42,556 bases of DNA. Origin: Bacteroidales bacterium (GTDB taxonomy: Bacteria; Bacteroidota; Bacteroidia; Bacteroidales; F082). Positions 14,743 through 19,626 of the stretch are shown here, in pieces. Under the pieces are notes generated by a model. The model saw nothing but the letters and a program-made list of their open reading frames with translations. It did not search any database and was not told the DNA's origin. How positions within the stretch are numbered: position 1 is the first letter of the stretch; each line of letters starts with the position of its first letter. The position numbers were made by a program, and so were the translations under genes. Location: positions 1 through 42,556 of the forward strand of contig JAGCPH010000016.1 in the NCBI GenBank assembly GCA_017645275.1, given 5' to 3'.

Positions 14743-16350
14743 ATGAAGAAAATTTTTACCTTACTAACAGCTATTTTATTAACAATCAATGCATTTGCAC
14801 TTGACGTCTGGGACGGCAGCGCCTCCCCTTGGACAAACGGCAACGGCACCAAGAACGACCCGTATCTCATCGAGACGGCAGCAAACCTGGCATATCTCGC
14901 CGAAAAAGTCAACGAAGGCTATCAAGCGCAAGGACAAGAGGTGTTTCATGACACCTATTTCATGATGACTGACGACCTTGACCTGAACAACATCAACTGG
15001 ACGCCGATCGGCACCGTTGACATGAGTATGCAAGGCTATTATTTTGGTGGCATTTTCGACGGTTGGTACCACAATATTGATCATTTGAGAATCACGTCGA
15101 GTGCTGATGTCTGCGGTCTGTTTGCAGGAGTGGGCAACAAAGCGGTAATCAAACATTTGTCGGTAACCAACGGCGACATCAACTCGACAGGCACTGGTGT
15201 CGGAGGCATAGTAGGAGCAGCATATGGCAACTCAAGAGTACATCAGTGTGCCTTCTCGGGCACCATAACCGTAACCAACAGCGGCTCGTTTTGCGGTGCA
15301 GGCGGCATAACGTCGGCAGCAGCTGAAAACAGCTTTATTAGTGAATGCTCGTTTTCAGGCAGCATCACAGCAACCAACAACGGAGGCTTCACCGGTGCAG
15401 CAGGAGCAGGAGGCATCGTCGGAATAGCAATGGACAATGCATTGATATCATCATGTTACAACACCGGCAGCATCACGGCAAGCTCTTTCATGCTCAACGT
15501 GGCAGCTGGCATAGTGGCAGTCACAATGCAGGAAAACGAAGTTTTTGTTGAACGCTGCTACAACGTTGGCACACTAAACGGAGCCACCGAAGGCGGCATC
15601 TTCGGAATGATTAGCCCGATAAACCCATTTAAAGACGAAGCATCAATAACCGTCATCGAATGCTATTATCTCGATACCTGCGGCGGCACCACCAATTACG
15701 GCACCAGCATGACAGCGAGCCAGATGCAGTCTTCAAGTTTCGTCAATATGCTTAATGAAGAGGCACCGATAACATTTGTCATGGACAACGGCAGCAACAA
15801 CGGATACCCGATATTGGCACTTTATGCCATCAGGATTCATGAGGCCTCCGATATCACTGCGCACTCCGTCAAACTGTCGGCCGACATCCATGCCGGAAAC
15901 ATCACATTTTCAAGGGTTTGCTTTGAAATCAGCGACATGGATATGACCTTCTTCAAGACCGTTGACGTTGACACCGACGGTTATGTCGAGACCATCGTTG
16001 AGGATCTCGCCGATGACACATCGTACCAATATTGCATGAGTGTTTATCATGACGGTAGCATTTTCCTGGTTTCAAACACGTTCTATTTCACCACCGAGTT
16101 TGATGGCGTCGATGAATTGCAAAATACCAATATTAGCATCTACCCTAACCCGACATCGGATTTTATCCATATCGATTGTAAAGACGTGCCATGGCGCGTC
16201 TCCATACCTATTAACATCTATTCCCTTGACGGAAAACTGGTAAAAACAGTCGAAAACGCCAACGTTGTTGATGTCAGGGACTTGGACGAAGGGGTATACC
16301 TTATTAATATAGGCGGAATAACAAAAAAGGTTGTGGTAGAGATGCCATAA
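14743..16350 (+). CDS. GLUG-repeat surface protein with T9SS sorting domain
   Basis: A 535-residue secreted protein. The signal peptide is MKKIFTLLTAILLTINAFA. The first two-thirds resemble GLUG-type beta-solenoid proteins: an opening NGNGTKNDPYLIETAANLAY segment, then repeated Gly/Ala-rich turns such as GGIVGAAYGNSRVHQCAFSG and GGIVGIAMDNALISSCYNTG. Proteins of this type are commonly adhesins or surface-layer components. A fibronectin-like segment (about 365-455) precedes a C-terminal T9SS type A sorting domain (ISIYPNPTSDFIHID, then INIYSLDGKLVKTVEN, ending GITKKVVVEMP). The sorting domain is interrupted in frame by residues 480-487, KDVPWRVS, encoded by the palindrome at 16182-16201. No clear TAnnTTTG box lies in the 97-base upstream gap. 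The surface location is secure; the ligand is unknown. Confidence 0.82.
   Translation: MKKIFTLLTAILLTINAFALDVWDGSASPWTNGNGTKNDPYLIETAANLAYLAEKVNEGYQAQGQEVFHDTYFMMTDDLDLNNINWTPIGTVDMSMQGYYFGGIFDGWYHNIDHLRITSSADVCGLFAGVGNKAVIKHLSVTNGDINSTGTGVGGIVGAAYGNSRVHQCAFSGTITVTNSGSFCGAGGITSAAAENSFISECSFSGSITATNNGGFTGAAGAGGIVGIAMDNALISSCYNTGSITASSFMLNVAAGIVAVTMQENEVFVERCYNVGTLNGATEGGIFGMISPINPFKDEASITVIECYYLDTCGGTTNYGTSMTASQMQSSSFVNMLNEEAPITFVMDNGSNNGYPILALYAIRIHEASDITAHSVKLSADIHAGNITFSRVCFEISDMDMTFFKTVDVDTDGYVETIVEDLADDTSYQYCMSVYHDGSIFLVSNTFYFTTEFDGVDELQNTNISIYPNPTSDFIHIDCKDVPWRVSIPINIYSLDGKLVKTVENANVVDVRDLDEGVYLINIGGITKKVVVEMP
16182..16201 (-). repeat. Palindromic element inside a coding sequence (T9SS domain)
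   Basis: AGACGTGCCATGGCGCGTCT has one mismatch to a perfect palindrome. Read on the minus strand it is AGACGCGCCATGGCACGTCT, identical to the core of the elements at 18964 and 19597. It sits in frame within the sorting domain of the 14743-16350 gene and encodes DVPWRVS, the same peptide encoded by the copy inside the transposase gene. Confidence 0.8.
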
Positions 16351-17435: not shown

Positions 17436-18938
17436 ATGAAAAAGATAACTATTATATTATTGATATTCAGCGCATTGACTCTTACAACATGCAAGAAGCT
17501 GCCTGAACTGAAGGTTTACGAACTCAACCTCGCCAATGAAAACGTTGCATATTCGCAGACATCGGCCGAGATCACGGTGGATTACGAGTATCCCACCCAG
17601 CTCCAGTATGTCAACGTGACCATGAGCCGGAGCAACTATTTCGACTATTCGTTTGTGGCACGTGCAGAGGTGAAAGACAGTATTATCATTGCCAACTTCG
17701 TTGATTTACAGACAGATAAAAACTATTATTACAAATTTGAATACAGCAATGGTGTAAACGTCGTGACATCAGATGTGCGCAGCTTCTATTTGGATGCTGC
17801 CAACGTGACGTTGCCGACGGTTGTAACCATGGAAGTTTCGGAGATCCAGGGCACAAGTGCAATATGCGGCGGTGAAATCATTGACGACGGCGGCTATTAT
17901 GTGACAGGCAGAGGCGTTTGCTGGAGCACGCACCGCAACCCAACAATCTTTGATAACTACACAACCGATGGCATGGATACTGGCTCGTACACATCCACGA
18001 TGACAGGGCTTAGCGAGCATACCGTTTATTACGTGAGAGCCTTCGCCATCAACGAAAAAGGAACAAGTTACGGCACTGAATACAGCTTTGAGACAACAAC
18101 AGGAGGCGGTGGCGGTGGTAATGTCCCGACATTTGAAGACGGTTTCTCTGTCAGCCCGACACAACGGGTGTTTTTCTCAAAAGGCAATCTGCAATATCAG
18201 GCATTAACCAACATATTCAGGTTTGCTGAAAACCAATGGGATTATGTGGGAGCGGAATACGACTCCAACTCAGGAACACTCACCGGAAGCTCCAATAACA
18301 GCATATCATCAACATACGGTGGCTGGATTGACTTGTTTGGATGGGGGACAAGCGGCTATGAACATGGCGCCGAATGTTATCAGCCATGGAGTTCTGACGG
18401 ATCAAATTCAAAATATTATGCTTACGGCAATTCGATATACAACCTCTCTGATCAGACAGGCAAAGCCGACTGGGGTTTCAATGCCATTGACGGAAACGAG
18501 GAAGGATTCTGGCGCACTCTCACAAAAGAAGAATGGGATTATCTTATCCACACAAGAAGCACGTTAAACGACATCCGATACGCTCCAGCCAGAGTCAACA
18601 GCGTGTCGGGATTGATACTGCTCCCCGACAACTGGGATCCTGCGATACATAATCTTTATAACGTCAACCATGAGGTAGCGGAATACACAGCCAACTCAAT
18701 ATCAGCCACAAAGTGGACGGAGCTGTTTGAGCCTAACGGCGCTATATTCCTTCCAACTACAGGCTTCCGTTCTAATGATGATGTCGCTCTATCCAAATAC
18801 ATTGGCGGCTACTGGTCATCTTCCCATTACAGCGCCAGCTCATCATACATATTTTTATTTGATGATGAACGTATCACGACATTGGGCGACTACCGAAACC
18901 TGGGTTATGGTGTCCGTCTTGTTCGTGACGCAGAATAA
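17436..18938 (+). CDS. Lipoprotein with fibronectin-like domain and FISUMP-like C-terminus
   Basis: A 500-residue lipoprotein: MKKITIILLIFSALTLTTC gives a lipobox ending at Cys19. A fibronectin type III-like domain is recognisable (ATSAICGG-like strand, GRGVCWSTHRNPTIFDNYTT, then LSEHTVYYVRAFAINEKGTS). A run of six glycines (223-228) separates it from a C-terminal domain common in Bacteroidales lipoproteins: FSVSPTQRVFFSKGNLQYQA, FRFAENQWDYVG, LTKEEWDYLIHTRSTLNDIR and a final YWSSSHYS/GYGVRLVRDAE segment. That terminal part resembles the FISUMP/DUF1566-type fold. The protein is probably surface-exposed and binds something extracellular, but no substrate can be inferred. It follows the barrel protein by 12 bases. 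Its 3' end faces the transposase gene. Confidence 0.72.
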   Translation: MKKITIILLIFSALTLTTCKKLPELKVYELNLANENVAYSQTSAEITVDYEYPTQLQYVNVTMSRSNYFDYSFVARAEVKDSIIIANFVDLQTDKNYYYKFEYSNGVNVVTSDVRSFYLDAANVTLPTVVTMEVSEIQGTSAICGGEIIDDGGYYVTGRGVCWSTHRNPTIFDNYTTDGMDTGSYTSTMTGLSEHTVYYVRAFAINEKGTSYGTEYSFETTTGGGGGGNVPTFEDGFSVSPTQRVFFSKGNLQYQALTNIFRFAENQWDYVGAEYDSNSGTLTGSSNNSISSTYGGWIDLFGWGTSGYEHGAECYQPWSSDGSNSKYYAYGNSIYNLSDQTGKADWGFNAIDGNEEGFWRTLTKEEWDYLIHTRSTLNDIRYAPARVNSVSGLILLPDNWDPAIHNLYNVNHEVAEYTANSISATKWTELFEPNGAIFLPTTGFRSNDDVALSKYIGGYWSSSHYSASSSYIFLFDDERITTLGDYRNLGYGVRLVRDAE

Positions 18939-18963
18939 TACACTATCATAAAAATTCGATGTT

Positions 18964-18985
18964 GAGACGCGCCATGGCACGTCTC
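18964..18985 (+). repeat. Palindromic element, left flank of the transposase gene
   Basis: AGACGCGCCATGGCACGTCT (18965-18984) flanked by G and C, in the 67-base gap between two convergent stops. It is identical in core to the element at 19597-19626 and extends with a TGT/ACA outer match. It could also serve as the terminator hairpin for both genes. Confidence 0.82.
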
Positions 18986-19005
18986 TACATTGTTTTTATA
19001 ATATT

Positions 19006-19560
19006 TCAACAATCAATTTTCAATCCCTCGCACCATTTTGCGACATTATTTTCAATATATTCCGCAATACGGTTCATTTCGCCTTGGTCGCGGATGATGT
19101 GGTCGTAATATCGTTCCTGCCATGCGAAAGATGGTTGGATTGTGCGGGCGAAACGGGTGATGGATTGTTTGAATCCACCAATTATTGTTGCCAATCTGTT
19201 TTGTTTATTTGCAATTTCTTGCATTGTTTTGTTTTTTCCATTTGTAGAGACACGCCATGGCACGTCTCTACCATATAACGTGGATTGTACGCAAACAACC
19301 ATGTGAATATGGTCGGGCATTACAATCCACAATGGTATTTCCGCATAACAATTGTGTTGTGTTATTTCTGATATGTTTTTGTCTGCATATTCCCCTATTT
19401 CCGACAAAATTATTTCACCATTTTTAATTTCACCGAAAAAATGTTCGCGGTTTTTGGTGCAAATCGTGATAAAAAATGCACCGCCATTATAATCATGCCA
19501 GTCAGCACGTGCCGATGGAATACGATATTTGTTATGATATTTTTGTTTTGTGTTTTCCAT
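19006..19560 (-). CDS. REP-associated tyrosine transposase (RAYT, Y1_Tnp family)
   Basis: A 184-residue HUH-superfamily single-strand endonuclease. The metal-binding motif is WIVMPDHIHMVV (His84, His86). The catalytic-tyrosine helix is AWQERYYDHIIRDQGEMNRI, in which Tyr151 or Tyr152 would attack DNA. The C-terminal EYIENNVAKW corresponds to the usual EYIxxNPxxW, with Val replacing Pro. RAYTs are single-copy, domesticated relatives of IS200/IS605 transposases that mobilise short palindromic repeats. Here the gene is bracketed by palindromes at 18964 and 19597. A third copy lies inside the gene, coding residues 97-106 (GRDVPWRVST) between the HUH motif and the Tyr helix. The frame is kept, so the enzyme may still be active, though the insertion could affect DNA recognition. 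There are no terminal inverted repeats of an insertion sequence. Confidence 0.88.
   Translation of the reverse strand: MENTKQKYHNKYRIPSARADWHDYNGGAFFITICTKNREHFFGEIKNGEIILSEIGEYADKNISEITQHNCYAEIPLWIVMPDHIHMVVCVQSTLYGRDVPWRVSTNGKNKTMQEIANKQNRLATIIGGFKQSITRFARTIQPSFAWQERYYDHIIRDQGEMNRIAEYIENNVAKWCEGLKIDC
19244..19271 (+). repeat. Palindromic element inside the transposase gene
   Basis: The core AGACACGCCATGGCACGTCT is flanked by matching GTAG/CTAC arms. Two mismatched positions reduce the palindrome compared with the flanking copies. It lies in frame within the 184-residue transposase and encodes residues 97-106. Confidence 0.82.
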
Positions 19561-19596
19561 AAAAATTGGTTTATAATTATTTATGTTTGTTTATGT

Positions 19597-19626
19597 TGTA
19601 GAGACGCGCCATGGCACGTCTCTACA
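19597..19626 (+). repeat. Palindromic element, right flank of the transposase gene
   Basis: The longest copy: TGTAG and CTACA arms around the core AGACGCGCCATGGCACGTCT, spanning 30 bases in the gap between the transposase start (19560) and the deoC stop (19643). Its right edge overlaps the putative -7 box of the transposase promoter. Confidence 0.85.

Follow-up and report, generated by a model that had tools for sequence, protein, structure and literature searches.

The window, that is, the whole stretch of 42,556 nucleotides analysed here, carries a gene for a REP-associated tyrosine transposase (RAYT, or TnpAREP), with palindromes of one family on both flanks and a third one inside its reading frame (Table 1), as the sequence-only reading had described. 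Regarding the identity of the gene, it is confirmed by a PF01797 score over the cut-off, by the histidines H84 and H86 and by Y168, and the NCBIfam model NF047646 (REP-associated tyrosine transposase) also matches it, at 60.6 bits, below its cut-off of 80. The palindrome GTAGAGACGCGCCATGGCACGTCTCTAC is found at both ends of the gene and, with one change, within it, where it keeps the frame and is read as the peptide GRDVPWRVST between the HUH motif and Y168, the role of this tyrosine being taken from the motif given in the available part of PMC6006769. As had also been noticed, the flanking copies share an identical 20-base core, AGACGCGCCATGGCACGTCT (18965-18984 and 19602-19621), in which the internal copy has one A for G. 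Because the palindrome is nearly symmetric, the inverted orientation of the flanking copies is uninformative. Altogether, the window holds four copies of this 28-base palindrome, with 0 expected from 100 shuffles.

Table 1. The RAYT gene, the sites coding for its motifs and the REP copies of the window.
Feature	Position	Strand	Remarks
RAYT / TnpAREP gene, 184 aa	19006-19560	-	PF01797 27.9 bits (cut-off 23); DHIH, W147-Q148, YIENN
HUH codons, residues 84-86 (H84, H86)	19303-19311	-	Motif position
Y168 codon, presumed catalytic tyrosine	19057-19059	-	YIENN; subclass motif in Table 1 of PMC6006769 (available part)
alphaC code, residues 114-136	19153-19221	-	Tends to change together with the REP core
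REP at the 5' end of the gene	19598-19625	none	Reference copy, GTAG...CTAC double foot
REP at the 3' end of the gene	18961-18988	none	1 mismatch to reference; GTTG replaces GTAG on one side
Internal REP, 28-base palindrome	19244-19271	none	In frame, residues 97-106; 1 mismatch to reference
Fourth REP	16178-16205	none	3 mismatches; in frame, type A (T9SS) sorting domain, ORF 14743-16350

Two further RAYTs are present in the same genome, 47% and 37% identical to that of the window; they were retrieved with protein queries, used instead of the PF01797 family search of the genome, which came back empty although hmmscan places the window gene over the cut-off. The Y1 domain and the flanking hairpins are shared with IS200/IS605 TnpA (PF01797); however, the three RAYTs of this genome are divergent and not near-identical copies. 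The third of them (L021:3544-4059, G000:C31) has flanking palindromes of another type, with the centre GGCATGCC, as for example TAGTGGCGAAGGCATGCCTTCGCCACTA, and not GTAGAGACG REPs. In the family, at least 98 of 173 genomes have a RAYT match. A viral origin was also considered and rejected, as one scan of viral contigs, able to find close relatives only, gave no match.

A RAYT with its own flanking palindrome in frame is an already known arrangement. As described by Quentin et al. (2018) in the available part of PMC6006769, TnpAREP subclass 2.4, in which they place RAYT group 4 of Bertels et al. 2017, is abundant in Cyanobacteria and Bacteroidetes and has double-foot REPs, and REPs are inserted within its genes, generally between HuH and Y, without disruption of the frame. 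Thus, the opinion that such an arrangement is less expected in a member of the Bacteroidota was wrong. The window RAYT resembles this subclass, as presented in the same part of that paper, in its flanking double-foot REPs (published pattern GT[AG]G...C[TC]AC), in the in-frame REP between HuH and Y, in the variable loop between beta3 and alphaC, in the WQ motif and in its host, Bacteroidetes being among those listed. Besides these similarities, it differs from the consensus given there by one residue in each of two motifs, with DHIH compared to NH[IFV]H and YIENNV compared to YIxNNP, and the concerted switching of core and alphaC block reported below was not found described in those sections. 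Among the 128 relatives of the sample used here, NH.H is the commonest variant (95), and DHIH and YIENNV are each found in 26.

A more distant comparison is offered by E. coli TnpAREP (4ER8; subclass 2.2) and by the group 3 enzymes of S. maltophilia and Marinomonas, which, according to the available sections of PMC8266576, share the HUH-tyrosine chemistry, the GTAG guide and a REP-binding helix, alpha3, but act on imperfect or short palindromes; moreover, the window protein gives only a weak match of 33 residues to 4ER8 (E 0.74). The same sections describe the contact of the E. coli enzyme, a member of another group, with its REP through alpha3 (K82), and alphaC of the window protein may be the equivalent of that helix, judged by position only. 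RAYT/REP co-evolution is already spoken of in the abstract of that paper.

The core recurs in the genome, at 23 sites with up to 3 mismatches, compared to 0 for a reversed-pattern control, in an assembly of 2.0 Mb in 54 contigs that is 82% complete. This recurrence agrees with the link between RAYT and REP that had been proposed for the locus, and an absence of the core from the rest of the genome is not borne out. One of the sites (3 mismatches, without the GTAG foot) is probably due to chance, which leaves about 22 copies. If any middle of 6-14 bases is allowed between the same arms, such palindromes are found in 96 of the 99 genomes of the genus, and the own genome has 25. For each of three cores tested, more copies were counted in genomes with the cognate RAYT (one-sided p 0.0049, 0.005 and 0.000086, kinship uncorrected), the cognate carriers being hand-picked from the loci examined, to which a two-substitution pattern would add loci with neighbouring cores. 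Two of the six carriers of the window's core rank only 41 and 35 of 99 in copy number, and one of the three carriers of the core TTTCNNGAAA ranks 22. The largest number of copies of the window's core among the 99 genomes, 50, is found in G089, whose RAYT has two internal REPs.

REPs are also read within other genes of the genome. By our reading, eight of the 22 sites lie in frame in ORFs of some substance, the hosts being the RAYT, the T9SS protein, a PG_1098/THUMP-like protein, an alpha-L-rhamnosidase, EPSP synthase (with two sites), an ORF of 651 aa that matches no Pfam family, and a Clp-like ORF, the last with its REP about ten codons from the end. In the case of the T9SS protein (ORF 14743-16350), the REP segment is absent from the nine orthologues examined. 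The own gene for EPSP synthase (aroA; G000:C52:30662-31894, L018/L192) has two in-frame REPs, and 30 aroA loci were compared, the own one included: in three from sister species (L194, L196 and L197), one of these two loops is occupied by REPs from other families. The event at these loops is a REP-for-REP exchange that has nothing to do with recognition. REPs within genes of several species have been reported by Di Nocera et al. 2013 (PMC3733652, available part), who also cite the Rickettsia RPEs; these are likewise short palindromes kept in frame in unrelated genes, and the different REPs at about one site of Xanthomonas recB resemble the aroA exchange. However, REPs inside the cognate transposase gene were not found described in that part of the paper.

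For the comparison among relatives, 165 ORFs were matched and 128 were kept, after dropping those without HUH and Y in one frame and those identical in protein; the loci were drawn from the matches listed (a main list, 37 further loci, 20 places and 80 more picked by hand). A strict palindrome lies between HUH and Y in 59 of the 128 RAYTs and elsewhere in the ORF in 7, compared to 5 of 472 control windows of 240 nt from other stop-to-stop ORFs of the same loci; a looser pattern finds an internal copy in 68 of the 128. These control windows, together with the shuffles of the window, rule out a chance palindrome. In the five best-scoring homologues (G048, G075, G115, G127 and G089), both the inserted segment and palindromic DNA are present, the G089 gene having two copies of the segment, and this does not contradict the earlier proposal that the palindrome invaded the gene.

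The internal palindrome is matched to those outside the gene. Its core equals a flanking core in 43 of the 48 loci that have both under the strict pattern (2000 shuffles: mean 7.1, maximum 15) and in 19 of 23 when one locus per 70% cluster is taken (shuffles: mean 2.5, maximum 8), and it matches no flanking core in the other 5 of the 48. By side, 37 of 41 loci agree at the 5' flank and 22 of 30 at the 3' flank. As the internal copy of the window has two wobble positions, it fails the strict pattern and is counted neither among the 59 nor among the 48.

Two reading frames are used for the insertion. Counted over 53 loci, 74 internal REPs are divided between the frames without TAG as 41 and 33 (by cluster 12 and 20, of 32), the third frame being excluded by construction because the TAG of GTAG would end the ORF. 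Both stop-free frames are used, and their peptides, of the RDVPWRVS type and of the ETLHATSL type, are unrelated; what recurs is therefore the palindrome, the peptide not being the part that is kept. The loop length varies widely among RAYTs. In L103/L044, L106, L111, L149 and L152, the loops hold two or three internal REPs, and the distance between HUH and alphaC, measured into the helix, reaches about 110 residues, which suggests growth by repeated REPs.

Regarding the region that follows the palindrome, 19 close pairs of RAYTs with different cores have their differences concentrated in the loop and the next helix (about Y-62 to Y-32). In that helix, alphaC, most positions differ in under a fifth of the 45 close pairs that share a core. 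The same-core pairs are nearer on average (N-part identity 0.88 vs 0.80), which was corrected by bins of N identity, each locus being labelled by its internal core if present and otherwise by its flanking core (103 loci, 68 with an internal one). In the bins 0.6-0.7, 0.7-0.8 and 0.8-0.9, the alphaC identity of same-core pairs is 0.65, 0.73 and 0.91 (31, 10 and 37 pairs), compared to 0.39, 0.56 and 0.68 for different-core pairs (98, 47 and 20 pairs), and the identity of the C part is equal within 0.03 between both kinds of pairs over the range 0.6-0.9. In the bin 0.90-0.97, nine different-core pairs have no alphaC-specific drop (alphaC 0.84, C part 0.82), and the values for 21 same-core pairs are 0.94 and 0.93. 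With the N part matched, alphaC is associated with the core at a partial r of 0.54 over 293 pairs, the maximum of 1000 shuffles being 0.20.

Silent sites were compared in five different-core pairs. The third-position identity in the N part, alphaC and the C part is 0.73, 0.28 and 0.58 for L026-L044; 0.84, 0.24 and 0.82 for L149-L152; 0.67, 0.36 and 0.71 for L032-L106; and 0.61, 0.32 and 0.74 for L035-L036. In the fifth pair, L027-L031, it falls little in alphaC (0.52, with 0.63 in N and 0.74 in C). As the fall inside the block is seen in four of the five pairs, it points to block replacement and not only to selection on residues. The pair L026 (G048) and L044 (G062) can be taken as the same place in two species, because their sequences upstream of the 5' REP are 85-86% identical over 150-200 nt; the G048- and G062-type RAYTs are 88% identical in their conserved parts. 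There, the N halves are alike, one locus has a single 5' REP and the other a doublet of another family, and the internal REP and alphaC differ by family as well, belonging to the same other family as the doublet. As orthologous genes have different cores, the internal REP is not sufficiently explained by simple vertical inheritance.

The core of a locus can also be predicted from its nearest neighbour. Of 50 loci, the internal core is given correctly for 46 if the neighbour is chosen by alphaC, compared to 29 by the N part and 27 by the C part; for the flanking core of 61 loci, the numbers are 51, 42 and 41. Near-identical proteins were collapsed, the N-part identities were taken from a gapped alignment, and the internal-core test omits L069, L071, L074, L128 and L188, where the internal palindrome and the alphaC window overlap. 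Where an internal REP is present (42 loci), the flanking core is predicted correctly by alphaC in 39 (N 29, C 28); among the testable loci in which no internal REP was detected (19), alphaC has no advantage (12, with 13 by N and 13 by C). Thus, physical linkage may carry much of the association.

The nearest N-part relative has another core in 14 loci, which form about six groups by our own grouping. For the window RAYT, the nearest N part is that of L044, with another core (N 0.76, alphaC 0.39), and the nearest alphaC is that of L027, with the same core (N 0.62, alphaC 0.83). Eleven pairs of the same or a near core were also compared. In each of them, the identity is higher in alphaC than in the N part, with a margin under 0.1 in four; it is wide in L044-L123 (alphaC 0.87, N 0.54) and very small in L107-L055 (0.65 and 0.64). 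Part of this excess is expected, since the pairs were chosen mostly as nearest by alphaC. The third-position identity of alphaC lies at least 0.1 above both other parts in only 3 of these 11. Three alphaC types can be named with their cores: IANKQ-x-x-L-x-x-x-IGGFKQ goes with GCCATGGC, MQSWLSVVIRQFKQ with TTTCNNGAAA, and SH-x-KG-x-LSV-x-x-GGLKR with GGTGTGCACACC.

The reading preferred here, to which a probability of roughly 0.55 is given, is that the RAYT would process hairpins of its own REPs and that the internal REP and alphaC would form one exchanged cassette. The locus would be a REPtron, formed by a REP-associated Y1 (HUH) transposase, its cognate double-foot REPs at either end of the gene and a further copy in frame, in a presumably permissive loop between the HUH strand and alphaC. 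By analogy with E. coli-type TnpAREP, the enzyme would bind the hairpins of its own REP family as single strands and nick them. The internal REP directly adjoins the code of alphaC, the helix that may read the REP core; recombination among RAYT genes could then exchange both as one piece, so that the reader is changed and a copy of the new target brought along, after which the flanking REPs would come to belong to the same family. We infer recombination as the cause, recognition by alphaC, the nicking and the manner in which the flanks follow. What is new is that, when the core differs between close relatives, loop and alphaC often differ as a block, silent sites included, and this pattern in the sequences suggests that the palindrome and its adjacent helix are often swapped together as one unit. 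A limited literature check, which included the available sections of PMC6006769, PMC8266576, PMC3733652, PMC2817692, PMC3686654 and PMC3116915, found no description of a cassette of REP and alphaC.

A different account would be neutral insertion, where REPs land widely, survive in permissive loops and turn over as families, with alphaC merely adjacent. It is less likely than the preferred reading, but is favoured by several results: REPs lie in frame in genes at 8 of the 22 own-genome sites (the RAYT included), other families occupy the same aroA loops in L194, L196 and L197, and the use of both stop-free frames speaks against retention of the peptide. In its favour are also the missing alphaC advantage where no internal REP is present and the statement of Quentin et al. 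that the variable region may have little impact on activity (PMC6006769, available part). However, landing at random would hardly place the palindrome in 59 of 128 RAYTs compared to 5 of 472 control windows, nor match its core to the flanks of the same gene, and the greater likeness of alphaC than of the N part in 11 of 11 same- or near-core pairs also speaks against it, with the caveat of their selection by alphaC.

The internal REP could otherwise act as a regulatory hairpin, as the sequence-only reading had considered, or as an operator, the RAYT limiting its own expression by binding its gene or mRNA. The coding strand does fold at -16.4 kcal/mol (z -3.7), with G-U wobbles that keep the stem, compared to -12.3 for the other strand, and 27 of the 28 bases are identical between the window and its G048 homologue, against 386 of 524 in the rest of the aligned gene. 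However, such conservation is also expected from REP turnover, the flanking copies fold more strongly (-23.0 and -18.6 kcal/mol), and no palindrome is present at that place in 69 of 128 homologues by the strict pattern or 60 of 128 by the looser one, which makes this role improbable. Still far less credible is a functional role for GRDVPWRVST as an enzyme loop, with the palindrome as its by-product: its in-frame position between HUH and Y would suit such a loop, but the two frames give unrelated peptides and the loop length varies widely. A conserved peptide is ruled out by the use of two frames.

The exchange of REP and alphaC as a cassette would bear on the joint diversification of REP families and their transposases. 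If the target moves along with the helix that reads it, the specificity of a RAYT could be predicted from its sequence, and a swap of some 25 residues should carry it over; the frequent presence of the target inside the genes of this subclass would then also have a reason. A wider and more tentative proposal, given somewhat below even odds, is that REP and alphaC are exchangeable in Group 4 RAYTs at large, where one recombination would retarget the enzyme and deliver its target, giving rise to new REP families, and the alphaC types would represent a recognition code.

Regarding the place of the locus, no RAYT is found in the examined stretch holding deoC of six sister genomes, and in G048 the RAYT lies about 5 kb from deoC, past a gene read as aspartokinase; two further stretches of this comparison ended short of deoC. 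Thus, the unit is not fixed in place across the genus. In G121 (L236:4700-5420), a ParD/ParE-like toxin-antitoxin pair, as read from the translation, stands where the window has the RAYT, and the same interval, between the homologue of ORF 17436-18938 and deoC, also holds a repeated copy of the deoC 3' end.
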